A DNA stretch of 30,465 nt, taken from positions 1-30,465 of the IMG/VR virus record IMGVR_UViG_3300021371_000072, one strand, 5' to 3'. The position numbers were made by a program, and so were the translations under genes. This document shows, piece after piece, positions 7,005-30,465 of the stretch. The notes beneath the pieces are model-generated. The model made no database searches, was not told where the DNA came from, and was given only the letters and a program-made list of their open reading frames with translations. This DNA is from a virus. Numbering within the stretch: position 1 is the first letter of the stretch; every line of letters starts with the position of its first letter.

Positions 7005-7036
7005 ATCAAATAAATTAATAAATAATCTATTATATA
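7005..7036 (+). promoter_or_regulatory. Late-promoter motif P3 (ATCAAA-N17-TATTATATA)
   Basis: ATCAAA at 7005-7010 and TCTATTATATA at 7026-7036, with TATTAT beginning exactly 17 nt after ATCAAA. The motif lies in a 50-nt gap between the tape measure and the protease module, 16 nt before the ATG at 7053. It is one of five copies in this genome, all ahead of structural units. Confidence 0.75.
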
Positions 7037-7052: not shown

Positions 7053-7406
7053 ATGAATAATATAAATCCATTAGGTAAAACTTACAAAGAATATCAAGAA
7101 GAATTAGAAAAGGTAAACTTGACTAAAGCAGAAAAAATTGAATTAGGTTTAGTTGATGATTATAATACAAGAATTGACAAAGCTAATGATGAAAGAGCAA
7201 CTGCATCAGTAAATTATGCAAAAGTACGAGGAAGAATGAAAATAGCTACAAAACATCTTGAATTAGCAGTAGGAATAGCAGAAAAAGCAGAAAAAGCAGC
7301 AGATGAACTAGGAGTAAAATCTCCTATACCTTTAAAAAAAGTAAAACAAAAATATAGCGAATTTAAAAAGGTTACAGATGCTTTAGAAAATATGAAGATA
7401 AGATAA
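7053..7406 (+). CDS. Coiled-coil morphogenesis protein related to the protease tail
   Basis: Protein of 117 aa, highly charged and helical with no membrane segment. Residues 25-50 (KAEKIELGLVDDYNTR, then IDKANDERA) resemble residues 205-230 of the adjacent protease (KAEKIELGAIDDFEKQ, then FKKAMDDKTA). The C-terminal parts of both also share spacing around a Lys-Pro/Leu-rich helix. It is first in the protease-capsid block, directly after a late-promoter motif and one base before the protease ATG. I infer a head morphogenesis factor, possibly a stand-alone paralogue of the protease's C-terminal extension or a protease substrate. No named family is recognised. Confidence 0.55.
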   Translation: MNNINPLGKTYKEYQEELEKVNLTKAEKIELGLVDDYNTRIDKANDERATASVNYAKVRGRMKIATKHLELAVGIAEKAEKAADELGVKSPIPLKKVKQKYSEFKKVTDALENMKIR

Positions 7407-8330: not shown

Positions 8331-8362
8331 ATCAAACAAACAATAATTAATTCTATTATATA
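8331..8362 (+). promoter_or_regulatory. Late-promoter motif P4 (ATCAAA-N17-TATTATATA)
   Basis: ATCAAA at 8331-8336 and TTCTATTATATA at 8351-8362, with the same 17-nt spacer before TATTAT as P1, P3 and P5. It lies in the gap between the protease and scaffold genes, 12 nt before the scaffold ATG, so it can drive scaffold and capsid as a separate unit. Confidence 0.78.
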
Positions 8363-8374
8363 AAAAAAAGACAA

Positions 8375-9025
8375 ATGGATTTAAAACAACAAATATTAGT
8401 AGCACTTGGTCTTGACAAACAAGAGGAAAGTGTTAATCTTGAATATCAAGCGAAACTAGAAGATGGTACTATAATAGTTTCTACTGCTGAATCTTTAGAA
8501 GCAGGAGTGGACATATCAGTTCTTACAGAAGATGGTACAACTATGTTACTTCCAGTTGGAGAATATAAGACTGAAGATGGTCAAGGATTCTCTGTTGAAG
8601 TAGAGGGTGTTGTAGCTGAAATCTACGAAGAAGAAGTAGAGGAGGAAGCAACAGAAGAAGTAGTTGAAGAAGAAGCATCTAAGGAAGATATGGAAGAAGA
8701 AACTATTGAAGAAACTGAAGCAGTAGAATTTGATTCAGTAGCTTTTATGGATGAAGTTAAGTCCGTAGTAGTTGATCTAATGAGTAATGTAAATACTGAG
8801 ATTGAAACATTAAAATCTGAGTTAGCATCTCTTAAATCAGACAATGAAGAATTATCTTCAGAAAAAGAAAAACTATCTGCACAAGTAGTAGAGTTATCAA
8901 ACGAACCTGCTGCAAAACCTGTAGATACAAACAAATTTAGTGCTTTAGGTAGAGAAAATACACAAAGAGATTTATCTAAAATGACTAAAAGAGAAAGAAT
9001 ATTATATAACATAACAAATAAATAA
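8375..9025 (+). CDS. Capsid scaffolding protein
   Basis: Protein of 216 aa. It has a beta-rich N-terminal part (residues 24-83, LEDGTIIVSTAES, later VGEYKTEDGQGFSVEVEGVV), a very acidic stretch (about 84-118, almost all Glu), a coiled coil (about 140-175) and a basic C-terminal tail (199-216, SKMTKRERILYNITNK). An acidic body, coiled coil and basic C-terminus are typical of phage scaffolds, where the tail binds the capsid subunit. Its position between the protease and the major capsid protein supports this. It ends 11 nt before the capsid ATG. Confidence 0.75.
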   Translation: MDLKQQILVALGLDKQEESVNLEYQAKLEDGTIIVSTAESLEAGVDISVLTEDGTTMLLPVGEYKTEDGQGFSVEVEGVVAEIYEEEVEEEATEEVVEEEASKEDMEEETIEETEAVEFDSVAFMDEVKSVVVDLMSNVNTEIETLKSELASLKSDNEELSSEKEKLSAQVVELSNEPAAKPVDTNKFSALGRENTQRDLSKMTKRERILYNITNK

Positions 9026-9964: not shown

Positions 9965-9989
9965 GGAGAGAGGGTTTTTCCCTCTTTCC
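9965..9989 (+). terminator. Hairpin after the capsid gene (terminator or attenuator)
   Basis: A 10-bp stem (9965-9974 with 9980-9989, one G-U pair) closed by a five-T loop, 13 nt after the capsid stop. The downstream tract is short on T (CCTTAACTTTAAA), so it may attenuate transcription or protect the 3' end of capsid mRNA rather than terminate fully. Confidence 0.65.
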
Positions 9990-10009
9990 TTAACTTTAAA
10001 AAAAATAAT

Positions 10010-10576
10010 ATGTCTTGTAATTTAACAAAAGGAAGAAACATAACTTGTAGAGATACAGTTGGTGGAATCAAAGCAATTTACTTTGCACAGTTTGATGAAG
10101 TAGCTTCTTATATAACTGCTTCAGGAGAATTGACTGACTTTGACTTAGGTGCTTCTGATGACATATATAAATACACTTTAAAGAGGGGTACTGCTTCTTG
10201 CACAGAAACTTTAACAGGTTCTAGTGAGAATGGTACTGTATTTTATACACCATCAGTTAATATCAAACTACACAAATTAACAAAAGAAGATCAAAATCAA
10301 GTAAAACTATTAGCTTCTAATAGATTGGTTATCTTCTTAGAATTAAACGAAGTACTAACGGCTAACTCACATAATGTGTTATTAGCTTTAGGATTAGAGA
10401 ATGGAATGGAACTAAACGCAGGTACTAACGCAACAGGAACTGCATTTGGGGATATGAATGGTTACGACTGGACTTTTGATGGTATGGAAAGAGACCCTAT
10501 GCCAACAGTAGCTGACTATACTACAACTCCACTTGACAATTCTGCATTTACTTACCAAAGCATAGTAACTTCGTAA
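10010..10576 (+). CDS. Virion structural protein, candidate major tail tube protein
   Basis: Protein of 188 aa. The N-terminus (MSCNLTKGRNITCRDTVGGI, with Cys3 and Cys13) and the later blocks FYTPSVNIKLHKLTKEDQNQ and LALGLENGMELNAGT, then GTAFGDMNGYDWTFDGMER, match a protein family I know from Flavobacteriia phages beside the capsid gene. Alternating beta strands, small size and an abundant-protein codon pattern would suit a tail tube subunit or a head decoration protein. It follows the capsid gene after a hairpin and is closed by a strong terminator, so it is probably made in large amounts. The tube assignment is inferred. Confidence 0.5.
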   Translation: MSCNLTKGRNITCRDTVGGIKAIYFAQFDEVASYITASGELTDFDLGASDDIYKYTLKRGTASCTETLTGSSENGTVFYTPSVNIKLHKLTKEDQNQVKLLASNRLVIFLELNEVLTANSHNVLLALGLENGMELNAGTNATGTAFGDMNGYDWTFDGMERDPMPTVADYTTTPLDNSAFTYQSIVTS

Positions 10577-10600
10577 ACTATTGTTTTCATATTTCTTAGA

Positions 10601-10627
10601 GGGCTACTTCGGTAGTCCTTTTTTTTT
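10601..10627 (+). terminator. Strong intrinsic terminator with UUCG tetraloop
   Basis: Stem GGGCTAC (10601-10607) with GTAGTCC (10612-10618), one G-U pair, a C(TTCG)G tetraloop, and a run of nine T (10619-10627). It ends the protease-scaffold-capsid-tube unit; a new late-promoter motif begins one base later. Confidence 0.93.
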
Positions 10628-10659
10628 ATCAAACAAAAAAGACTTTTTTCTATTATATA
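10628..10659 (+). promoter_or_regulatory. Late-promoter motif P5 (ATCAAA-N17-TATTATATA)
   Basis: ATCAAA at 10628-10633 directly abuts the T-run of the terminator; TTCTATTATATA lies at 10648-10659, with a 17-nt spacer to TATTAT. The ATG of the next gene is 14 nt downstream. A terminator immediately followed by this motif is good evidence that a new transcript starts here. Confidence 0.8.
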
Positions 10660-19551: not shown

Positions 19552-19586
19552 TTTGTTAATTAGCGAGTTAATTAATTGTATATTTG
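19552..19586 (+). promoter_or_regulatory. Bacteroidota-type promoter for the replication genes
   Basis: TTTG at 19552-19555 and TATATTTG at 19579-19586, separated by 23 nt, match the Flavobacterium-type consensus (TTG, 17-23 nt, TANNTTTG) read by the host primary sigma factor. The start site would be near 19593, about 20 nt before the first replication-region gene. This contrasts with the five late motifs elsewhere. Confidence 0.7.
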
Positions 19587-20545: not shown

Positions 20546-21061
20546 ATGACAGATAGAGAAAAATTTGAAACCATTTGCGACCTTACTACTCATACAGTAG
20601 GGTTGCAACAAGGTTCTTTAGCTTATAAGACTAGAAAGCAGGAGATATTAGTACCTAGAATGGTAGCTACTGTAATAGGTAGAATAAGTAAAGACATACA
20701 TCCTACTATAATTGCAGATATAATTAATAAGGATCGTACTTCTGTAATACATTATATGAAATATCACAAATCAAATTATGCAAGTTTTCCAGTTTATAGA
20801 GATACATTTAATAAAGTTTGGAAAGCATATAATGAACTAGAAAAAATAAAGATAGTATTTGCAGATAAAGAACAAATGATAAGACATTTATTAGATGCAG
20901 GTATTAAGATTGTTGCTAAACCACAAGTTAAGATTAAAGTATTGTGTGGTAAGTATAAATACTTAGTACATACTAACTATTTGGAATTTTCAAATAATAT
21001 TGATATTATTAAGAACTCATTAAAACATTATGATTACTCTATAGACATTATAACAATATGA
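20546..21061 (+). CDS. DnaA domain IV-like DNA-binding protein
   Basis: Protein of 171 aa. Residues about 18-72 follow the DnaA C-terminal DNA-binding pattern: a KTRKQEILVPRMVATVIGR helix, ADIINKDRTSVIHYMKYH as the recognition helix (compare the DHTTV signature, here DRTSV). No AAA+ domain is present, so it cannot act as a full initiator; it may bind origin-like boxes or compete with host DnaA. The C-terminal half (about 95-171) is uncharacterised. The start is the ATG after an A/T-rich leader; the stop overlaps the next ATG. The similarity is good in the helix-turn-helix only. Confidence 0.7.
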   Translation: MTDREKFETICDLTTHTVGLQQGSLAYKTRKQEILVPRMVATVIGRISKDIHPTIIADIINKDRTSVIHYMKYHKSNYASFPVYRDTFNKVWKAYNELEKIKIVFADKEQMIRHLLDAGIKIVAKPQVKIKVLCGKYKYLVHTNYLEFSNNIDIIKNSLKHYDYSIDIITI

Positions 21062-21675
21062 ACGAAACACCAAACTATTATGCAATAATACCTGCAAACG
21101 TAAGGTATGCTGATCTAAAACCTAATGCTAAACTTTTATACGGAGAGATAACTGCTTTAAGTAATAAACACGGATTCTGCTTTGCTTCTAACAAATACTT
21201 TGCAGAGTTATATAAAGTAAATAAAAATACTATTAGTTCTTGGATTTCTGATTTAAAAAATTACGGATTTATAACTGTAAAGATAGAACGTAATGTAAAT
21301 AACCAAATCACGAAAAGATGTATAGGTATTCTGAAAAAGATGGATAACCCTATACACGAAAAGCTGAAGTATAATAATACAAGTATTAATACTACAAGTA
21401 ATAATATATCTATAAAGGAAAAATTTGAAAATTTGGTTATGTTTTTTGATTATCCTAAAGAAATGAAATTAGACTTTATCAATTACTGGACAGAAAAAAG
21501 TTCTGATAGATTAAATGCTAAAATGAGGTATCAGAAACAAGCTACCTTTGATGTTAAGTTGCGACTGGATCGTTGGGCGAAAAATTCTGCTAAGTGGGAT
21601 AAACCAAAGAAAGCAGGTACATCTAAATTAGATGCACAGATAGATGAATGGCAAAAGGCAAAGAGTTTACTATGA
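21058..21675 (+). CDS. Winged-helix replication protein
   Basis: Protein of 205 aa. The N-terminal part (residues 1-100) is a winged helix: YYAIIPANVRYADLKPNAKL, FASNKYFAELYKVNKNTISS as the HTH, GFITVKIERNVN as the wing. This is the pattern of RepA/DnaD-like phage replication initiators. The C-terminal part holds FINYWTEKSSDRLNAKMRYQ and KLRLDRWAKN, a block seen in replication proteins of Bacteroidota mobile elements. It overlaps the DnaA-like gene by 4 nt. It probably binds the origin and recruits a host helicase. That role is inferred. Confidence 0.7.
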   Translation: MNETPNYYAIIPANVRYADLKPNAKLLYGEITALSNKHGFCFASNKYFAELYKVNKNTISSWISDLKNYGFITVKIERNVNNQITKRCIGILKKMDNPIHEKLKYNNTSINTTSNNISIKEKFENLVMFFDYPKEMKLDFINYWTEKSSDRLNAKMRYQKQATFDVKLRLDRWAKNSAKWDKPKKAGTSKLDAQIDEWQKAKSLL

Positions 21676-21875: not shown

Positions 21876-22234
21876 AAACACTACAAGAAGAAAACATTAA
21901 GGAACTAACAGAAAAAGTCTTAGACTTAGTAGCAAAGACATCAGTAGAGTTAGGACACAGAGCAGATGCTAAATCAATGGCTTCATTATCTAAAATATTT
22001 GCAGAGGACTTACAAAAAGAAAATAGATTTAGAAGAATGACATTCAATCAAATAGAGGATGCTTTTCACATAGGAGTTAGATACTCTGACTTTGATCCTT
22101 ACATAAACATTAGAACATTCTTTAAATTTATTATAAGTCATAAAAAGAAAATCAACGAAGCTATTTACAAAACAGAAACACTTAATCAAAAAAATGTAGA
22201 ATTTTATCAACCACCTTTAAAACAATTAAAATGA
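21872..22234 (+). CDS. Replication-module hypothetical protein
   Basis: Protein of 120 aa, helical and charged. The segment TFNQIEDAFHIGVRYSDFDP, then INIRTFFKFIISHKKK, resembles proteins found beside replication initiators in Bacteroidota phages and plasmids; the function is unknown to me. Coupled starts on both sides (ATGA) place it in the replication operon. A helicase-loader role would be consistent with the absence of any helicase gene but is speculative. Confidence 0.55.
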   Translation: MKTLQEENIKELTEKVLDLVAKTSVELGHRADAKSMASLSKIFAEDLQKENRFRRMTFNQIEDAFHIGVRYSDFDPYINIRTFFKFIISHKKKINEAIYKTETLNQKNVEFYQPPLKQLK

Positions 22235-22860
22235 AAATTTTAGAATTGTTTGCAGGTAGTAGGTCAATAGGTAAAGTAGCAGATGAATTAGGATATAAAG
22301 TTTTTTCTGTAGATATCAAAAATTTTGATAAGATAAATTTAGTAAAAGATATAGAATTTTTAAATGTAAAAGATATACCTTTTAAACCTGACATGATCTG
22401 GGCTAGTCCTCCTTGTACTACATATTCTATAGCAGCTATAAGTCATCATAGAGATATGGGGAGACCTAAAACAGATTTTGCTGCTAAAAGTGATAGATTA
22501 GTTTTAAATACTTTAAAATTAATTAAAGAATATAATTGTATATATTTTATAGAAAATCCACGAGGTTATCTAAGAAAAATGCATTTTATGTTAGGAATAC
22601 CAAAGACTACTATATGGTATTGTAAGTATGGATTTAAAAATGCTAAACCTACAGATATTTTTAGTAATCATATATATTCTTTATTTAATAATAATGGTTG
22701 GATACCTAGACCTAAATGTTATAATGGTAATATAAAATGTCATCACGAATTAGCACCTAGAGGATCAAAAACTGGAACACAAGGACTAAAAGGCAATTAC
22801 GAAAGAAGTAAGATACCTAAACAATTATGTGAAGAAATAATTAAATCAATAACAAAATGA
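22231..22860 (+). CDS. Short C5-cytosine methyltransferase-like protein 1
   Basis: Protein of 209 aa. Motif I is LELFAGSRSIG (4-14, cofactor binding), motif IV is WASPPCTTYS (57-66, with Cys62 as the candidate catalytic residue), and motif VI is FIENPRG (107-113). It is shorter than typical C5 methyltransferases (300 aa or more) and lacks an obvious target-recognition region, as do several phage versions. Methylating phage DNA would protect it from host restriction. A second enzyme with the same layout lies at 26004-26612. Activity is likely but not proven by motifs alone. Confidence 0.75.
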   Translation: MKILELFAGSRSIGKVADELGYKVFSVDIKNFDKINLVKDIEFLNVKDIPFKPDMIWASPPCTTYSIAAISHHRDMGRPKTDFAAKSDRLVLNTLKLIKEYNCIYFIENPRGYLRKMHFMLGIPKTTIWYCKYGFKNAKPTDIFSNHIYSLFNNNGWIPRPKCYNGNIKCHHELAPRGSKTGTQGLKGNYERSKIPKQLCEEIIKSITK

Positions 22861-23135
22861 AAACAATAACAATAAATGAAAATGAGATAAGTAGTTCTAT
22901 AGATGCAATCAAATGGCATTTAAAAAACTATGGACATATAACAAGTTTACAAGCTATAAAATTATATGGTGCTACACGACTAGCTGATATAATATATAAG
23001 TTAAAGAAACAAGGTTATACTATACATACAACTGATTTAGAATTTACTACTAGATTTGGTAGAAAAACAACAGTAGCTAAATACTTATACTTCAAACCAA
23101 AACCTCAGTTTGAACAGAAATTAATATGGGGTTAA
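22857..23135 (+). CDS. Helix-turn-helix protein (HTH_55-like)
   Basis: Protein of 92 aa. Residues about 14-75 (AIKWHLKNYGHITSLQAIKL, GATRLADIIYKLKKQGYTIH) fit the HTH_55-like family: a winged helix with LAD/RL contact residues and a short wing. It overlaps the methyltransferase gene by 4 nt. It is likely a DNA-binding regulator, perhaps of early genes. The target is unknown. Confidence 0.7.
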   Translation: MKTITINENEISSSIDAIKWHLKNYGHITSLQAIKLYGATRLADIIYKLKKQGYTIHTTDLEFTTRFGRKTTVAKYLYFKPKPQFEQKLIWG

Positions 23136-23156: not shown

Positions 23157-23354
23157 ATGAAAACTACAAAAATGTTCAAAATGTGCTTAGAAAGTGGAGA
23201 AGCTGAATTTAAACAAACTCCTGAATTTTATAACGAAGATCCTTTATTAAAATTAGATATTTTACAAGACTGGATAATTGCTCTACAAAATGCATATAAT
23301 AATACAATACCTAAATTTGAAAAAGATTTAGAAGAACGTGCAAAAGAAAATTAG
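23157..23354 (+). CDS. Small acidic hypothetical protein
   Basis: Protein of 65 aa, acidic, helical in its second half (LLKLDILQDWIIALQNAYNN). It follows a 21-nt AT-only spacer (AATAAATAATAATAAATAAA) and overlaps the NinG start by 17 nt. No family is recognised. Confidence 0.5.
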   Translation: MKTTKMFKMCLESGEAEFKQTPEFYNEDPLLKLDILQDWIIALQNAYNNTIPKFEKDLEERAKEN

Positions 23355-23745
23355 CAAACTTAAAAAAGAGTTAGATAGTTGGTTTTCTAAATACATTAGA
23401 CTAAGAGATGCTACAGATATGGGAGTTGCACAATGTTTTACTTGTGGTAAGATAGACCATTATAAAAAACTACAGAACGGACACTTTCAATCTCGTAGAC
23501 ATCACAACACAAGATGGGATGAAAAGAATTGTCAAGTACAATGTGTAAAGTGTAATATTTATTCTTCAGGAGAACAGTATAAATTCGGTATGTATTTAGA
23601 TGCAAAGTATGGATTAGGAACTGCTGAAGAACTAGAGTTTATGTCTAAGGTAAATGTAAAAATGATGCGTATAGATTATGTAGAAAAGATAAGTTATTAC
23701 AAAGACCTTGTTAATAAAATAAAAAAAGAAAAGAATATAGAATGA
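23338..23745 (+). CDS. ninG: NinG-like recombination nuclease
   Basis: Protein of 135 aa. After a helical N-terminus (ELDSWFSKYIRLRDA), zinc cysteines occur as CFTCG (33-37) and QCVKCN (68-73), with the HNH-like NGHFQSRRHH (47-56) between. This matches lambda NinG (Rap), which resolves branched recombination intermediates. The start is GTG at 23338; no upstream ATG is available in frame. It lies with other DNA-metabolism genes and a NinB-like gene about 1.9 kb downstream, so the nin pair is present but split. Confidence 0.85.
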   Translation: MQKKISKLKKELDSWFSKYIRLRDATDMGVAQCFTCGKIDHYKKLQNGHFQSRRHHNTRWDEKNCQVQCVKCNIYSSGEQYKFGMYLDAKYGLGTAEELEFMSKVNVKMMRIDYVEKISYYKDLVNKIKKEKNIE

Positions 23746-24122
23746 ATAATTTTCTATATTTGAATATGACCAAACCTATATTTGCAAATACCACACACCA
23801 AATAGTTGTTAATGATTATTTAAACTTAATGCTAACATTTGCAAAAGACATATCTACTAAAGCAAAGTTTGAAAATTTTAAAGAAGTTTTAGAATGTGTT
23901 TTAGAATATCACAACAGTTACGGAGAAGATGTAAATGGTGGTAACTGGAACGATTGGTTAATGATAATACCTATTAATACTTCTGTAATGGTTAATGGAT
24001 ATTTTGCAGGAATACAAAGTAAAGGCAATTTAAAAATAGTTAGGTCTTACAAAGTTTTGTTAGATAATGCATTAGAGGTTTTAGTTAATGATTTGCGAGA
24101 AATAGAATACAATAATGAATAA
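23742..24122 (+). CDS. Hypothetical protein in the recombination region
   Basis: Protein of 126 aa, mainly helical in the first half (LNLMLTFAKDISTKAKFENF) then mixed. No family is recognised. Two TATATTTG words occur near its start (23755-23762 and 23777-23784), and an internal ATG at 23766 (MTKP) could be an alternative start. It overlaps NinG by 4 nt and the sigma-like gene by 8 nt. Confidence 0.55.
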   Translation: MNNFLYLNMTKPIFANTTHQIVVNDYLNLMLTFAKDISTKAKFENFKEVLECVLEYHNSYGEDVNGGNWNDWLMIIPINTSVMVNGYFAGIQSKGNLKIVRSYKVLLDNALEVLVNDLREIEYNNE

Positions 24123-24678
24123 AGTTTATGAAGCAGTAGCAGATTGTAGAAAGACATTTATAGAAATGTCTTACACCTACTCGCAAGATATAAACGAAAT
24201 AGAAGAAGCAGTACAAGAGTGTCTAATGTATTTTTTGCAAATGAATCCTACAGTATTAAAAGACATATATGAGAAAGATGGGCAGAAAGGATTAATAAGA
24301 TATGGTGCAGTAGTATTAAGAAGAAGTTTTACATCAGTAAGAAGTCCTTATTATTATAAGTATAAGAAATACTACACTAACTTAGATGCACAAGCAAGTA
24401 CATTAACTTACGACATAACAGAAACTGGAGAAACATCTAATGAAAAGAATTTATATAACATACCTAATTCTGAAGAATATAAACAATGGCAAAAGCTCGA
24501 ACTTATTGATCAAGCTCTTGAAGAAATTTATTGGTACGATGCTTCAGTATTTAAGTTATACTACTACGAGGGTAACACATTAACAGGACTAGCAAAAAAG
24601 ACAGGCATAAGTAGAAACAGTCTGTTTACGACTATAGACAAAGTAAGAGAACAACTTAAAGAATTGTTAGATGAGTAA
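24115..24678 (+). CDS. Sigma-70-like factor, candidate late-gene activator
   Basis: Protein of 187 aa. Residues about 24-70 (SQDINEIEEAVQECLMYFLQ) fit sigma region 2, and residues 145-185 (LYYYEGNTLTGLAKKTGISR, NSLFTTIDKVREQLKELL) fit the region 4 helix-turn-helix that reads the -35 element. A Tyr/Lys-rich linker (about 78-90) separates them. Small two-domain factors of this size are ECF-like. Late structural units carry a shared ATCAAA / TATTATATA motif unlike the host promoter, so this protein is the obvious candidate to recognise it. That link is inferred. It overlaps the next gene by 8 nt and has no promoter motif of its own. Confidence 0.75.
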   Translation: MNKVYEAVADCRKTFIEMSYTYSQDINEIEEAVQECLMYFLQMNPTVLKDIYEKDGQKGLIRYGAVVLRRSFTSVRSPYYYKYKKYYTNLDAQASTLTYDITETGETSNEKNLYNIPNSEEYKQWQKLELIDQALEEIYWYDASVFKLYYYEGNTLTGLAKKTGISRNSLFTTIDKVREQLKELLDE

Positions 24679-25072
24679 CTTCTTTGTCAAAGATGAGGTG
24701 TATCAAGAACGTATAGCATTATGTAGGGAATGTGTATATTACTTTAAACCTACAGGTACTTGTAAGGTATGTCTTTGTTTTATGAAAGTAAAAGCTAGGA
24801 TAGGAGTAATGGAATGTCCACAGAAGTATTGGGGTAAGACAACAAAAGTAGAAAGACCTGATGACATACCACAAGAACTAATAGAAGAATGTTTTTTAAT
24901 TTGGGAAGATGTAAAGACAGGAGTAGCAAAAAACGTAACAGTAAAAAAGAAAATGATAGAATTATATAATACTATATATAATGCAAACTATAAAACTACA
25001 AGTAACTGTGGTTCTTGTTTAAATAGTTGCTATCACGGAATAAGACAAATAGTAGAAAAATATAAAACATAA
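24671..25072 (+). CDS. Cys-rich zinc-binding protein
   Basis: Protein of 133 aa with C18, C21, C31, C34, C36 and C49 (CRECVYYF, CKVCLCFMKV, ECPQKYW), plus C113, C116 and C120 (CGSCLNSC). The first group matches a small zinc-finger pattern of the DUF6171 type seen in phages. The central part (51-95) is helical with acidic residues. It is coupled to the sigma-like gene by an 8-nt overlap, so a partner role in transcription is possible but untested. Confidence 0.6.
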   Translation: MSNFFVKDEVYQERIALCRECVYYFKPTGTCKVCLCFMKVKARIGVMECPQKYWGKTTKVERPDDIPQELIEECFLIWEDVKTGVAKNVTVKKKMIELYNTIYNANYKTTSNCGSCLNSCYHGIRQIVEKYKT

Positions 25073-25075
25073 AAG

Positions 25076-25315
25076 ATGAAAAATAAGATACCTGATTATT
25101 ATATAGGAAAGAATTATAAATACGAAGCTAGAAAAGTAATATCAGATTGGGAACTAAACTGGAATGTAGGTAATGCAGTAACATACTTACTAAGAGCAAA
25201 CTTTAAGCATAATTCTCCTGAGGAATGTATAAAGAAAGCTATACACCATTTAGAGTTTGAGTTAGAGGAGTTAGATCAACAGAAGAAAAAAAATGTTAGA
25301 TTAAATCATATATAA
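25076..25315 (+). CDS. DUF3310-like protein
   Basis: Protein of 79 aa. KYEARKVISDWELNWNVGNA, VTYLLRANFK, and the final KKAIHHLEFELEELDQQ give the YExxxVIxxWxLxxxxGNAxxYLxRA pattern of DUF3310, common in phages near nucleotide-metabolism genes. The function is not established. Its stop lies inside the left arm of a long hairpin (25312-25371). Confidence 0.75.
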   Translation: MKNKIPDYYIGKNYKYEARKVISDWELNWNVGNAVTYLLRANFKHNSPEECIKKAIHHLEFELEELDQQKKKNVRLNHI

Positions 25316-25375
25316 AGGAGGGTAGGCATATTGCCATAATAATTATTAAATGTTTTTATACTCTCCTTTATTTTT
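25312..25375 (+). terminator. Long hairpin with internal stem-loop, likely terminator
   Basis: Left arm 25312-25324 pairs with right arm 25359-25371: 13 bp with one G-U pair. The 34-nt loop contains its own small hairpin (GGCA-TAT-TGCC, 25325-25335). TTTTT follows at 25371-25375. The large structured loop is unusual for a simple terminator, so a short structured RNA is also possible. Confidence 0.7.
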
Positions 25376-25387
25376 AAAACAAAAACT

Positions 25388-25624
25388 ATGTTAATATATC
25401 AATGTAATAAATGTGAAATACAAAAAGAACTAAGCAAAGTAACTATGAAAGTAATAGATGGTAAGGTTGTAAACTTAGGAACTGAGTGTTCAAACTGTGG
25501 CGAGTATATGCAAGAGATAGCTAAAGAGTTTAACGGCTTTCCTCAATTACGCAGAACAGAACCATCACTAAGTAAAAGACAAGATAGAATGTGGAAAGAC
25601 ACTAAAGAAAAACTAACAAGCTAA
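25388..25624 (+). CDS. Zinc-ribbon protein
   Basis: Protein of 78 aa with CNKC (6-9) and CSNCG (34-38) as a zinc ribbon, then a conserved-looking FPQLRRTEPSLSKRQD tail. Similar small proteins are frequent in Bacteroidota phages; the function is unknown. It is the first gene after the hairpin at 25312-25375, and its stop overlaps the NinB-like ATG. Confidence 0.65.
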   Translation: MLIYQCNKCEIQKELSKVTMKVIDGKVVNLGTECSNCGEYMQEIAKEFNGFPQLRRTEPSLSKRQDRMWKDTKEKLTS

Positions 25625-26007
25625 TGAAGTTTGTAATACACGATAACAAAGACAAGATGCAATTAGTAAACTATTTAAAAGATATAGAAAGTCCTTACAC
25701 AGTAGATGTAAAGAAACACAGAAACACAAGGTCTAACGTACAGAACAATTACTACTGGAAGTGTATAGTACAAGTATTAGCACAAGAGTTAGGTTACTTT
25801 AATGATGAGATGCACGACATACTAAGAGCAAAGTTTTTAAACGAGTGGGAGATGGTAGAGATAAACAATAAGAAGATAGGACTAAACAAGATAGTAAGTA
25901 CAACATCTCTAAACACAAAAGCATTTGAAGTATATGCAGACCAAATAAGAATATGGGCATTGTCTGATTTAGGGATAAGACTAATGCTACCAAATGAATA
26001 CAAATGA
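25624..26007 (+). CDS. ninB: NinB-like recombination mediator
   Basis: Protein of 127 aa. The pattern RNTRSNVQNNYYWKCIVQVL, MHDILRAKFLNEWE, TTSLNTKAFEVYADQIRIWA and LGIRLMLPNEYK follows lambda NinB (Orf), which binds ssDNA and helps load recombination proteins. It fits with the NinG-like gene upstream and an SSB-like protein. The stop overlaps the next methyltransferase start by 4 nt. Confidence 0.8.
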   Translation: MKFVIHDNKDKMQLVNYLKDIESPYTVDVKKHRNTRSNVQNNYYWKCIVQVLAQELGYFNDEMHDILRAKFLNEWEMVEINNKKIGLNKIVSTTSLNTKAFEVYADQIRIWALSDLGIRLMLPNEYK

Positions 26008-26612
26008 AGATATTAAATTTATACGCAGGAATAGGTGGTAATCGTAGCTTATGGGGTAATAAGCACGAAATAACATCCGTTGAACATAATGAAAGCATTT
26101 CTAAAATTTATCAAGATTTATATCCTAATGATAAAGTAATAGTAGCTGATGCACATTTATATTTACAAGATAACTTTAAAGACTATGATTTTATTTGGAG
26201 TAGTCCACCTTGCCCTTCACACTCAAGAATGAGATTTAAAGCATATTGTAATGGTAAAGGAAAGGCATTATTTCCTGATATGAAACTTTATGAAGAAATA
26301 CTTTTTTTACAACAATATACTAAAAATACTAATATTAAATATGTTGTAGAAAATGTCAAAGGTTGGTATAAGCCATTAGTTGAACCACAAAATATGGGTA
26401 GGCACTATATATGGTCTAATTTCAAAATACCAAATATTAAAATTAAAAGCAATTCTACAGGTAATAATAAAGGTATGACATTACAAAAGAAAATGCAACT
26501 TAAAGGTTATGATATAAAAGAATGGCATAACTACAAAGGAGATAAAAGAACTTTAATAAATAATTGCGTTGAAAAACAAATAGGAATAGAAATATTAAAT
26601 GCTATCAAATGA
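26004..26612 (+). CDS. Short C5-cytosine methyltransferase-like protein 2
   Basis: Protein of 202 aa. Motif I is LNLYAGIGGN (4-13), motif IV is WSSPPCPSHS (65-74, Cys70), and motif VI is VVENVKG (114-120). A GRHYIWSNF block (about 132-141) is in the place of the later structural motifs. It shares size and layout with the first copy but not flanking sequence (PPCPSHS against PPCTTYS), so the two may recognise different sites. The ATCAAA of late motif P1 lies inside its last codons. Confidence 0.75.
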   Translation: MKILNLYAGIGGNRSLWGNKHEITSVEHNESISKIYQDLYPNDKVIVADAHLYLQDNFKDYDFIWSSPPCPSHSRMRFKAYCNGKGKALFPDMKLYEEILFLQQYTKNTNIKYVVENVKGWYKPLVEPQNMGRHYIWSNFKIPNIKIKSNSTGNNKGMTLQKKMQLKGYDIKEWHNYKGDKRTLINNCVEKQIGIEILNAIK

Positions 26613-26635
26613 ATATCAATAATTTCTATTATATA
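26604..26635 (+). promoter_or_regulatory. Late-promoter motif P1 (ATCAAA-N17-TATTATATA)
   Basis: ATCAAA at 26604-26609 and TTCTATTATATA at 26624-26635, with a 17-nt spacer. It lies in the only gap before the terminase genes; the small terminase ATG is 32 nt downstream. A 14-codon frame (ATG 26609) passes through it but is probably incidental. Confidence 0.75.
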
Positions 26636-26667: not shown

Positions 26668-26940
26668 ATGGATGGCAGAATAAACAATAAAGGTACAAAA
26701 GGAAACAAAGGTGGTAGACCATCTAAAGCAGAAGAACAAAAGCTAATAGAAAACCTTACACCTATGAACGCAGATGCTTTAAAGTCTTTACAGATAGGTC
26801 TAAAGAATAAAGAACAATGGGCAGTTAAATTATTCTTTGAGTACTTCTATGGTAAACCACAACAGAGAGTTGATGTTACGAGTAATAGCGAAACACTAAA
26901 CATACCTATAATAAACTTTGTTGAATCCGAAACTGAATAA
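26668..26940 (+). CDS. Terminase small subunit-like protein
   Basis: Protein of 90 aa. The GNKGGRPSKAEEQKLIENL start and the LFFEYFYGKPQQRV block match small terminase-like proteins found ahead of TerL in Bacteroidota phages. It would bind phage DNA and start packaging. It overlaps TerL by 23 nt, in a different frame. It is shorter than many small terminases, with no separate oligomerisation domain visible. Confidence 0.7.
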   Translation: MDGRINNKGTKGNKGGRPSKAEEQKLIENLTPMNADALKSLQIGLKNKEQWAVKLFFEYFYGKPQQRVDVTSNSETLNIPIINFVESETE

Positions 26941-28129
26941 AAAATATAGTGCATTATTTTCATCTAACTGTAGATACTATATAATTACAGGTGGTAGAGG
27001 ATCAGGTAAGTCCTATGCAGTTACAGTATTTCTAACATTACTTACAATGACACAAGGTATAAGAGTGTTGTTTACAAGATACACTATGGTATCTGCTCAC
27101 TTATCTATTATACCTGAGTTCTTAGAAAAGATAGGACTATTAGGATTTGATTCTATATTTAGCATTAACAAGTCAGAGGTAGTCAATACATCAACAAAGA
27201 GTGATATACTATTTAGAGGTATAAAGACATCATCAGGAAACCAAACTGCTTCTCTTAAGTCATTACAAGGCATATCGTGTTGGGTACTTGATGAAGCAGA
27301 AGAACTTATAGATGAAAATATATTTGACACTATAGACCTTAGTATAAGACAGAAAAGCATACAGAATAGAATTATACTTGTCTTAAATCCAGTAACAAAA
27401 GAACATTGGATATATAAACGATTCTTTGAGGAGAGAGGGGTTAGGGATGGTTTTAACGGCATTAAAGACAATGTCTGCTATATACACTCCACATACTTAG
27501 ATAATAAAGCTAACCTATCTAAAAGTTTCTTAGAAAGGATATATAGATTAAAAGACATTAACTTTAAAAAGTATCAACATAAGATTTTAGGAGGTTGGTT
27601 AGATAAAGCAGAGGGTGTAGTATTTGATAACTGGACAATAGGAGAATTTAATCCTGATAACTTACAGACATCTTGTGGAATGGACTTTGGTTTTTCTGTT
27701 GATCCTGATAGTCTTACTGAGGTTGCTATAGACAAAAAGAAAATGAAGATATATATCAAAGAGCATATATATCGTAATGGTTTAAAATCACACGAGTTAG
27801 CTAAGATAGTATTAGCAAAGGTAGAGAACAAACTAATTATAGCAGATAGTGCAGAACCTAGACTGATAGAAGATTTAAGACATTTAGGAGTAAACATAAA
27901 GCCAGTAAAGAAAGGAACTATAGAAAGTGGTGTAACTCGTATGCAAGATTATCAGTTAGTAGTTACTTCTGAATCAACAAACATAATTAAAGAGTTAAAC
28001 AACTATGTCTATGCAGATAAAGGAAGCAAGTTATATGTAGATAGTTATAACCACGCAATAGATGGTATTAGGTATAACGTAATATATCACTTAGACAATC
28101 CAAACGCAGGTAGGTATTTTGTTCAATAA
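26918..28129 (+). CDS. terL: Terminase large subunit
   Basis: Protein of 403 aa. Walker A is GGRGSGKS (25-32), Walker B is WVLDEAEE (122-129), and the coupling motif is VLNPVT (155-160). The nuclease residues are Asp256 in CGMDFGFS, Asp310 in IIADSAEP and Asp382 in HAIDGIRY, so ATPase motor and RNase H-like nuclease are both complete. It belongs to the Terminase_3 type. The start is TTG at 26918 (a second TTG follows at once); no ATG lies before Walker A in this frame. It cuts and pumps genomic DNA into the head through the portal. Confidence 0.93.
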   Translation: MLNPKLNKKYSALFSSNCRYYIITGGRGSGKSYAVTVFLTLLTMTQGIRVLFTRYTMVSAHLSIIPEFLEKIGLLGFDSIFSINKSEVVNTSTKSDILFRGIKTSSGNQTASLKSLQGISCWVLDEAEELIDENIFDTIDLSIRQKSIQNRIILVLNPVTKEHWIYKRFFEERGVRDGFNGIKDNVCYIHSTYLDNKANLSKSFLERIYRLKDINFKKYQHKILGGWLDKAEGVVFDNWTIGEFNPDNLQTSCGMDFGFSVDPDSLTEVAIDKKKMKIYIKEHIYRNGLKSHELAKIVLAKVENKLIIADSAEPRLIEDLRHLGVNIKPVKKGTIESGVTRMQDYQLVVTSESTNIIKELNNYVYADKGSKLYVDSYNHAIDGIRYNVIYHLDNPNAGRYFVQ

Positions 28130-28202: not shown

Positions 28203-28234
28203 TTAAACTAAATAACAATAAATTCTATTATATA
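28203..28234 (+). promoter_or_regulatory. Late-promoter motif P2 (degenerate -35, TATTATATA)
   Basis: TTCTATTATATA at 28223-28234 is identical to the other copies. The upstream element is degenerate (TTTAAA at 28202-28207, within one base of the expected place). The motif ends 2 nt before the ATG of the tail chaperone. With TATTAT at 28226-28231 the start site would fall on or near that ATG, which suggests a leaderless or nearly leaderless mRNA. Confidence 0.6.
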
Positions 28235-28236
28235 TT

Positions 28237-28881
28237 ATGCAGGTAAACATTAAGAAAGATGGTAAGCAAAACACTTACAATCTAATTAACAGTTGGGATG
28301 ATGTAACACTTGACAAATGGGCTAAACTTATAGATAGTAAAAGTAAGTCAAAGACCAAAGAAGCATTAGATACAATTAGCTTGTTATCTGATATACCTAG
28401 AAAACTCGTAAAAGAGTTGAGTATAAATGATGTATCTAATATCTTAAACAGAGTAGCTGCGTTGCAGAACAAAGCTAGTAGTAGGTTAAAAAGAATAATA
28501 AAGGTAGATGATGTAGAGTACGGCTTTCATCCTGATCTATCAGAAATTACTCTTGGAGAATATGCAGATATTGAAACCTACATACAAAACGGAATGGAAA
28601 AGAACTTAGCTAAGTTAATGGCAGTTCTTTACAGACCAGTAGTAGAGAAGAATGGTAAATACTATTCTATAGAGAAATATAATGGTAGTGGTGTACGGAT
28701 GAGAGCAGAGAAGTTTAAGAAGATGAAAGCAGCAGATGTAAATAGTTCATTGGTTTTTTTTTGGACTTTAGGCAACGAACTATCGACAATTTTGCCGTTG
28801 TATTTGATGGAACGGATGGAGGAAGTGAAACAATCACTACTGATGAAAAGTTCGCAACAAAGTGGTCTTGGTTCGGAGTGA
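28237..28881 (+). CDS. Tail assembly chaperone (gpG-like), with programmed -1 frameshift
   Basis: Protein of 214 aa in the main frame. It is helical and charged, with blocks LINSWDDVTLDKWAKLIDSK, FHPDLSEITLGEYADIETYI and LAKLMAVLYRPVVEKNGKYY, a pattern I associate with tail chaperones of Flavobacteriia phages. Codons 173-175 (GTT TTT TTT) carry a T TTT TTT heptamer at 28755-28761. A -1 slip there continues into the overlapping frame to 29006 and gives a 256-aa fusion. This matches lambda gpG/gpGT, where the longer form helps load the tail tube onto the tape measure. The main-frame tail after the slip site is 39 aa. Confidence 0.75.
   Translation: MQVNIKKDGKQNTYNLINSWDDVTLDKWAKLIDSKSKSKTKEALDTISLLSDIPRKLVKELSINDVSNILNRVAALQNKASSRLKRIIKVDDVEYGFHPDLSEITLGEYADIETYIQNGMEKNLAKLMAVLYRPVVEKNGKYYSIEKYNGSGVRMRAEKFKKMKAADVNSSLVFFWTLGNELSTILPLYLMERMEEVKQSLLMKSSQQSGLGSE
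28755..28800 (+). other. Candidate programmed -1 ribosomal frameshift site
   Basis: Slippery heptamer T TTT TTT at 28755-28761 in phase with the chaperone frame, inside a run of nine T (28754-28762). About 9-11 nt downstream, GGCAA (28771-28775) can pair with TTGCC (28792-28796), or CAACG (28773-28777) with CGTTG (28796-28800), either of which could stimulate slippage. The open -1 frame starts at exactly this point (TTG 28761). Confidence 0.75.
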
Positions 28882-29904: not shown

Positions 29905-30348
29905 ATGGCAGATTTAACAACAACCTTATCTGAATCAGTAACACTAAATGGTGCAGTAAGAGGTACAACAAACACAGTAACAACTACAGGAATTAATAAC
30001 GTATATGAAAGAATTGTAACTTGTACTATAGATGAAACAACACATCTAGCAACTTTTGATTCTGATTCTTTTGGTTCAGCAGTTCAGATAGATAAAGAAG
30101 ATGTTAGATATATTAGAGTAACTAATCTTGATGCTACTGACAGTTTAGAATTAGCAGTAGTTGGTGCAGCTACTAATTATCAAGTATTACTAAAAGCAGG
30201 TCAATCACATATACTATGTGCAGCAGAAGATGTTATGTTAGCAGAAGCTGATACATCTCCTAGCTTTGGCACTATGGCTGACTTAACAAGCATACAAGTA
30301 CACCCTGTTGCTACATTAGATGTAGAGATATTTGTAGCTAGTGTGTAA
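29905..30348 (+). CDS. Beta-rich virion structural protein
   Basis: Protein of 147 aa, nearly all predicted beta strands (SESVTLNGAVRGTTNTVTTT, DVRYIRVTNLDATDSLELAV, LTSIQVHPVATLDVEIFVAS), with no Cys cluster and no membrane segment. It lies 2 nt after the preceding gene and its stop overlaps the gp10-like start. A tail tube or tail-associated protein is possible; if this is the tube, the protein at 10010 would be something else. No named family is recognised. Confidence 0.5.
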   Translation: MADLTTTLSESVTLNGAVRGTTNTVTTTGINNVYERIVTCTIDETTHLATFDSDSFGSAVQIDKEDVRYIRVTNLDATDSLELAVVGAATNYQVLLKAGQSHILCAAEDVMLAEADTSPSFGTMADLTSIQVHPVATLDVEIFVASV

Positions 30349-30465
30349 TGATAGCATTAGAACGATACTTAAATAGTTTCGGTAAGAGTGTTGTCAATAA
30401 AGCTAAAGGAATACTAAAAAGAAAAAAAAAGGTAGTATCAGGTAAAATTCTTAATAGTATATCTT
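30321..30465. repeat. Terminal direct repeat, right copy (circular overlap)
   Basis: Copy of positions 1-145 with a single difference at 30447 (A instead of C). Joining the copies restores the TAATG coupling between the beta-rich structural protein and the gp10-like gene. Confidence 0.93.
30348..30465 (+). CDS. Partial second copy of the gp10-like gene start
   Basis: The first 39 codons of the gene at 28-549, present again because of the circular overlap. Codon 34 is ATT (Ile) here and CTT (Leu) in the left copy. It is not a separate gene. Confidence 0.9.
   Translation, partial: MIALERYLNSFGKSVVNKAKGILKRKKKVVSGKILNSIS

Follow-up and report, generated by a model that had tools for sequence, protein, structure and literature searches.

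Two phages with enterobacterial hosts provide the closest described systems. In phages 7-11 and phiEco32, a phage-encoded sigma factor (SaPh711_gp47 and gp36, respectively) works on the host core RNA polymerase, and host-type early promoters are combined with phage-type late promoters. The early/late sigma scheme of phage 7-11 has been demonstrated experimentally, and its late promoter is bipartite, GTAAtg-(16)-aCTA (PMC8948821). Factors of the phiEco32 type have been termed an outlying ECF subgroup (PMC7881722). The 187-aa protein studied here is encoded in a 30,465-base virus record (referred to as the window, meaning the whole stretch of DNA analysed) and is predicted to act in a comparable scheme, with its use of the host core polymerase being inferred. 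The window phage differs from these two systems in its longer -10 element (TTCTATTATATA) and in that a natural residue-to-base switch is visible. A tblastn search of the window protein against 50,697 cultured-phage records at a threshold of E 0.01 gave no match, either to gp36 and gp47 or to any other protein.

Nonlabens phage P12024S is a second point of comparison. Gene 33 of P12024S/L (annotated as 'Sigma-70 region 2', with a clear Sigma70_r2 match) occupies the same position just upstream of the terminase, and P12024S also has a conserved motif, AAACAAA ... TTTCCGTTAATATA, near the ATG of late genes. There, as in the relatives of P12024S, the matched core starts 13-16 nt from the ATG. Gene 33 has no BLAST homology to the window protein, and a profile comparison yields only E 0.001 and a probability of 20% over 45 residues. 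No TTCTATTATAT site was found in P12024S and its relatives, and their -10 element differs from that of the window; a different sigma factor goes with a different late motif. In P12024S itself (L202), five plus-strand sites at 1085, 3466, 22015, 23255 and 24855 read TTTC(C/A)CGTTAATA or TTTTCGTTAATATA, 13-14 nt before a late-gene ATG. These sites have an AAACAAA-type -35 element, are conserved in two further records (L281 and L282), and are candidate promoters, of a CCGTTAATATA type, for the distinct sigma factor P12024S_33.

Bacterial ECF sigma factors (SigL, SigE; TIGR02937) share with the window protein a two-domain size (region 2 plus region 4), the fold and an AAC-like -35 element. In contrast to these, the window protein has a diverged region 2 and falls below curated cut-offs, its proposed targets are phage late genes, and no anti-sigma gene was identified: the neighbouring genes at 23742-24122 and 24671-25072 gave no informative anti-sigma match. 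In the open-access literature, to which our search was limited, no description of the promoters served by a phage-encoded sigma factor turned up for any Bacteroidota phage. The window sigma factor is a new family, and its unusual value lies in a readable specificity residue.

Because the last 145 bases of the window (30321-30465) repeat the first 145 (1-145) with one mismatch, we read it as probably a complete, circularly assembled genome of ~30.3 kb, in which the end repeat is an assembly overlap. Every assigned gene is on the plus strand. The genes for replication and recombination, among them those for the replication initiator, NinG and NinB, are located at about 19.6-26.6 kb, and the remainder encodes terminase, capsid and tail proteins, the latter two called from position and size. 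The early genes include those for a replication initiation protein (21058-21675; PHROGs 9.8e-26), a NinG/Rap-like endonuclease (23338-23745; PHROGs 3e-28) and a NinB/Orf-like recombination mediator (25624-26007; PHROGs 2.3e-16). Two short C-5 cytosine methylase-like genes (22231-22860 and 26004-26612) flank the sigma gene. The late gene terL, encoding the terminase large subunit, is at 26918-28129 (PHROGs 4.9e-44). The host is inferred to be probably a member of the Flavobacteriia, since the terminase is closest to that of P12024S (61% identity) and next to those of Riemerella phages. One contig of the same phage group (PAPR01000004.1, L082) was binned in a Pseudooceanicola MAG; its relatives indicate Flavobacteriia, and mis-binning is likely.

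A putative host-type promoter, TTTG-N23-TATATTTG, precedes the early/replication operon (which includes the sigma gene) on the plus strand at 19552-19586. It is of the Bacteroidota primary-sigma type (TAnnTTTG), and a TATATTTG-type box is kept upstream of the orthologous gene in five relatives (G003, G005, G006, G007 and G009). A promoter of this kind ahead of the replication genes, the sigma gene among them, had been proposed in a preliminary description of this DNA, as had late promoters with a non-host pair of -35 and -10 elements. Both proposals hold up, the late motif being unlike the host TAnnTTTG box. The early-to-late order itself is an inference that rests on the kinds of promoter and the arrangement of the genes, without expression data.

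The gene for the ECF-like phage sigma factor is an intact open reading frame at 24115-24678 (plus strand), and the protein has 340 relatives in IMG/VR. The NCBIfam profile TIGR02937 (sigma70-ECF) matches 40 of 40 family members (best E 5.4e-12). The window protein aligns to this profile with E 5.6e-9, residues 12-185 corresponding to profile positions 11-165 of 165, but the score of 35.8 bits is below the curated cut-off of 42.9. Pfam curated cut-offs are not reached either; taken alone, the window protein gives only weak region 4 matches in Pfam (E 0.02-0.04). Across the 40 family members, the Pfam Sigma70_r4 and r4_2 models match 27-29 proteins (best 8.6e-5), and Pfam recognizes the region 2 part only weakly. 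Sigma families in PHROG match up to 39 of the 40, and a PDB sequence search with the family profile found chance-level matches only.

An AlphaFold2 model run on the family alignment (pLDDT 78) comprises two helical domains and a disordered linker, with regions 1.1 and 3 absent. The N-terminal helical domain covers residues 1-95, a low-confidence linker residues 91-118, and a C-terminal helix-turn-helix domain residues 119-187. We delimited the region 2-like domain (residues 1-90; 24115-24384) by predicted secondary structure and confidence and by the TIGR02937 alignment from residue 12; the helices in this part are predicted at 2-10, 12-19, 26-42, 45-55, 57-73 and 78-95. The region 4-like helix-turn-helix domain (residues 119-187; 24469-24675), the proposed reader of the -35 element, is supported by Sigma70_r4 / r4_2 and by structural matches. 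Foldseek and VIA-align place the ECF sigma factors SigL and SigE among the top matches of the model, and the match to 6dv9_F has a Foldseek E of 1.3e-3 and a VIA Z of 10.6 over 155 residues, with an rmsd of ~16 A. This full-length superposition is poor because the linker is unstructured and the two domains are set differently, and the fold match therefore counts domain by domain. Region 4 alone superposes at 1.8-1.9 A over 62-63 residues on the region 4 domains of SigF (8jzt_C) and Mycobacterium tuberculosis SigD (3vfz_A); domain-wise superpositions of region 4 range from 1.8 to 3 A, and the structural match of region 2 is weaker. Since no Foldseek match of the model reaches E 0.001, and helical proteins commonly give middling Z scores, the sigma assignment rests on sequence profiles and structure jointly.

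Judged by these profiles and the predicted model, the 187-aa protein is a diverged ECF-type sigma-70 protein, for which core binding and transcription are inferred. On the profile matches, its region 2-like part is real but diverged. The preliminary description had distinguished region 2-like and region 4-like parts in this protein, and both the profile matches and the resemblance of the model to ECF sigma factors bear it out. It had also called the protein the only recognizable transcription factor of this type. This needs a slight correction, since the gene at 20546-21061 encodes a DnaA domain IV-like protein and that at 22857-23135 a small winged-helix protein; neither of the two is sigma-like.

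The late motif, (T/C)AAA(C/T)NAA-N10/11-(T/A)TCTATTATATA, occurs exactly five times in the window, always on the plus strand and never on the minus strand; 300 first-order Markov simulations gave a mean of 0.0 and a maximum of 0. All five sites are directly upstream of virion genes, and the distance from the first base of the 12-mer to the start codon is 14-44 nt. The first, CAAATAAA-N10-ATCTATTATATA (7007-7036), is 17 nt before the ATG of the gene at 7053. The form CAAACAAA-N10-TTCTATTATATA occurs twice, at 8333-8362 (ahead of the gene at 8375, just upstream of a major capsid protein-like gene) and at 10630-10659 (ahead of 10674). Next to the terminase genes are CAAATGAA-N10-TTCTATTATATA (26606-26635), ahead of terS (26668) and terL (26918), and TAAACTAA-N11-TTCTATTATATA (28204-28234), which follows terL and precedes the gene at 28237; here the 12-mer starts 14 nt from the ATG. 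A site orthologous to that at 8333-8362 is present in nearly all related records compared. The CTATTATATA core alone, with one mismatch allowed, is not enriched in the window (16 matches versus 14.2 expected); the late-promoter signal is the exact core combined with the -35 element and position.

Equivalent promoters occur at orthologous genes in 20 relatives with sigma factors that are 50-96% identical. In 21 near-complete genomes, all 83 bipartite sites are on the gene strand, and the offset from -35 to -10 is 18 or 19 only. In 35 of these 83 sites (window example, 28223-28239), the distance between the first base of the 12-mer and the ATG is exactly 14 nt. From this distance we infer that late transcription starts close to the ATG and that the 5' leader of late mRNAs may be absent or very short, in contrast to the majority of flavobacterial mRNAs (5.5% are leaderless in Flavobacterium psychrophilum; PMC9723704). 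A scan of IMG/VR that permitted spacers of 7-13 returned 120 stretches, with a single identical spacing among the matches listed. A looser pattern, TCAAA-N15-22-core, was dropped in favour of tighter ones, as it had many matches without a sigma gene or TerL.

We searched 50 motif-bearing IMG/VR records with the family profile and found the sigma gene in 17 of the 17 that are at least 25 kb long, as would be expected if, as had been suggested, gene and motif occur together across related genomes. The shorter records without the gene that were opened (G047, G057) are fragments that end before its position. A 23-kb record without the gene (G075) comes from an unrelated virus, in which the motif matched once by chance. 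Two phages, G040 (L559+L560) and G041 (L561+L562), encode a diverged sigma factor (46-51% identical) and have the standard late motif, and no terminase homologous to that of the window was found in them; sigma factor and motif stay paired where the terminase differs. Co-occurrence alone is nevertheless weak evidence because the phages are related. Three other genomes, G118, G090 and G093 (L661-L664, L676), were set aside as chance, having a single motif match with no ATG behind it. The distant region 4-like protein that they encode is 195-198 aa long (profile E about 1e-11), and the genomes contain long AT-only stretches.

Starting from the observed gene, fold class, motif, placement, co-occurrence and the co-variation detailed below, we consider it highly probable that the ECF-type phage protein replaces the host primary sigma factor on host core RNA polymerase and directs the enzyme to the late promoters, with core binding, promoter opening, the contact by residue 76 and the temporal order inferred. 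The host holoenzyme would first use the promoter at 19552-19586 to transcribe the early/replication operon, which extends from 19613 to about 26600 and contains the sigma gene. Newly made phage sigma factor would then take over host core RNA polymerase at the late promoters, its region 4-like domain reading (T/C)AAA(C/T)NAA at -35 and its region 2-like domain reading TTCTATTATATA at -10. The terS/terL genes and the virion genes would be switched on in this way from the five promoters.

The same protein could instead be a late activator of the RinA/ArpU type or a Q-like antiterminator that acts together with a host sigma factor. Its gene lies between ninG and ninB, ahead of the terminase, a location that late activators or Q occupy in other phages, and PHROG 36, a 'transcriptional regulator' family, matches 39 of 40 members (best 2.5e-7). 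The Q-like phrog_79 matches 6 of 40, weakly (best E 0.019) and less well than the sigma families, and the poor recognition of the region 2 part by Pfam could also fit such a role. However, the TIGR02937 alignment is nearly full length and includes the N-terminal half with region 2, and the motif has a fixed-spacing -35/-10 layout that reaches close to the start codon. The late -10 element is also unlike the host TAnnTTTG box, which an activator-assisted sigma-A would still need. In addition, residue 76, in the region 2-like part, varies together with the base that immediately precedes the -10 core, as is expected of a sigma factor and not of an activator that binds upstream. We regard an activator or antiterminator as unlikely.

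The strongest evidence is that the sigma factor and its proposed promoters vary together. The late promoters of some relatives read TTATATTATATA or TTACATTATATA, and an alignment of both kinds of sigma factor revealed that Arg76 is replaced in exactly these phages. Its codon is at 24340-24342 (plus strand), and the residue lies just past the region 2.3/2.4-like helix; an assignment to the ECF 'L3' loop was withdrawn, as the position is after this helix. Base 3 was tallied for non-redundant sigma factors, with corrected labels where TTCTATTATATTATAT shifted the pattern match by 5 nt. By site, the counts are 332 C, 2 A and 2 T for Arg76, and 0 C and 48 A for Asn, His or Tyr at this position. By genome, they are 154 C and 1 A for Arg76 (n=155) and 0 C and 30 A for the replacements. 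The one exception is G037 (TTTRS lineage), which keeps Arg76 and has an A-type terS promoter and a C-type promoter after terL; one extra A-like site occurs in L477. A further scan of IMG/VR used the A-type motif as its query and took no account of the protein. Every record recovered with a full family sigma factor has Asn, His or Tyr at residue 76, including a previously unsampled clade (TSKYS).

It is chemically reasonable for arginine to read the G of a C:G pair and for asparagine to read A. Arg76, at the C-terminal end of the 2.3/2.4-like helix, is the proposed specificity residue and would read position 3 of the -10 element (about -13), a C:G pair; phages with Asn, His or Tyr in its place have A there in their late promoters. 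Direct contact between residue 76 and base 3 is inferred. No comparable switch was seen in region 4 columns, which is expected because the -35 element is conserved.

It remains conceivable that motif and gene co-occur by common descent only, and that residue 76 and base 3 each mark lineages without being linked. All members are related, and a tree-based paired sign test is not significant (p 0.25-0.5), a level it cannot reach with three independent switches only. However, a tree of the sigma factors that omitted columns 19 and 73-76 requires at least three independent origins of this pairing. The third clade retains ancestral-type residues at 19 and 73, so that residue 76 is the sole column following base 3, and it is located where a reader of the -10 element is expected. 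It is the only invariant column altered in all three switch sets and also the only fully disjoint column; the simulated probability that an otherwise invariant column is common to all three sets by chance is 0.005. Shared ancestry also does not readily account for the scan from the motif side, which gave only sigma factors without Arg76, one clade of them new to the sampling, and we regard it as improbable. The co-variation goes beyond co-occurrence and points to the 187-aa protein as the putative reader of the late motif, a role that had earlier been no more than proposed for it.

The least credible alternative, that a host alternative sigma factor reads the motif and the phage protein has another role, is compatible with motif conservation alone and with the lack of an identified host and of a host genome scan, but we consider it very improbable, because base 3 changes in concert at all late promoters within one phage and does so only when residue 76 of the phage protein changes too, and because none of the six sigma motifs mapped in F. 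psychrophilum, which include sigma-A TAnnTTTG variants, a sigma-54 type, TAnnTTGY and a CGT box, resembles TTCTATTATATA or includes the late motif (PMC9723704).

With the phage protein as the reader of the late promoters, it is probable, with somewhat less assurance than its role as a sigma factor, that the private sigma factor of a large marine phage lineage was re-coded at least three times by one residue (Arg76 to Asn, His or Tyr), with late promoters changing from C to A in step. This would constitute a natural orthogonal series of sigma factors and promoters for Bacteroidota RNA polymerase, and such compact pairs could serve as tools for Bacteroidota. Sequence alone yielded the factor, its set of promoters and a specificity rule based on a single residue. 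They explain how a small phage, in a host with unusual TAnnTTTG promoters, could separate early from late genes, and they permit automatic calling of late operons for hundreds of genomes from uncultured marine phages.

Inside the early operon of the window, an intergenic stretch (25312-25376) contains an inverted repeat, AAAGGAGGGTA ... TACTCTCCTTT, and is possibly a terminator or a small RNA. G+C-rich hairpins followed by T runs are present at 9968-9992 and 10598-10625, directly upstream of the genes at 10010 and 10674, and many relatives have these hairpins with an altered stem sequence.
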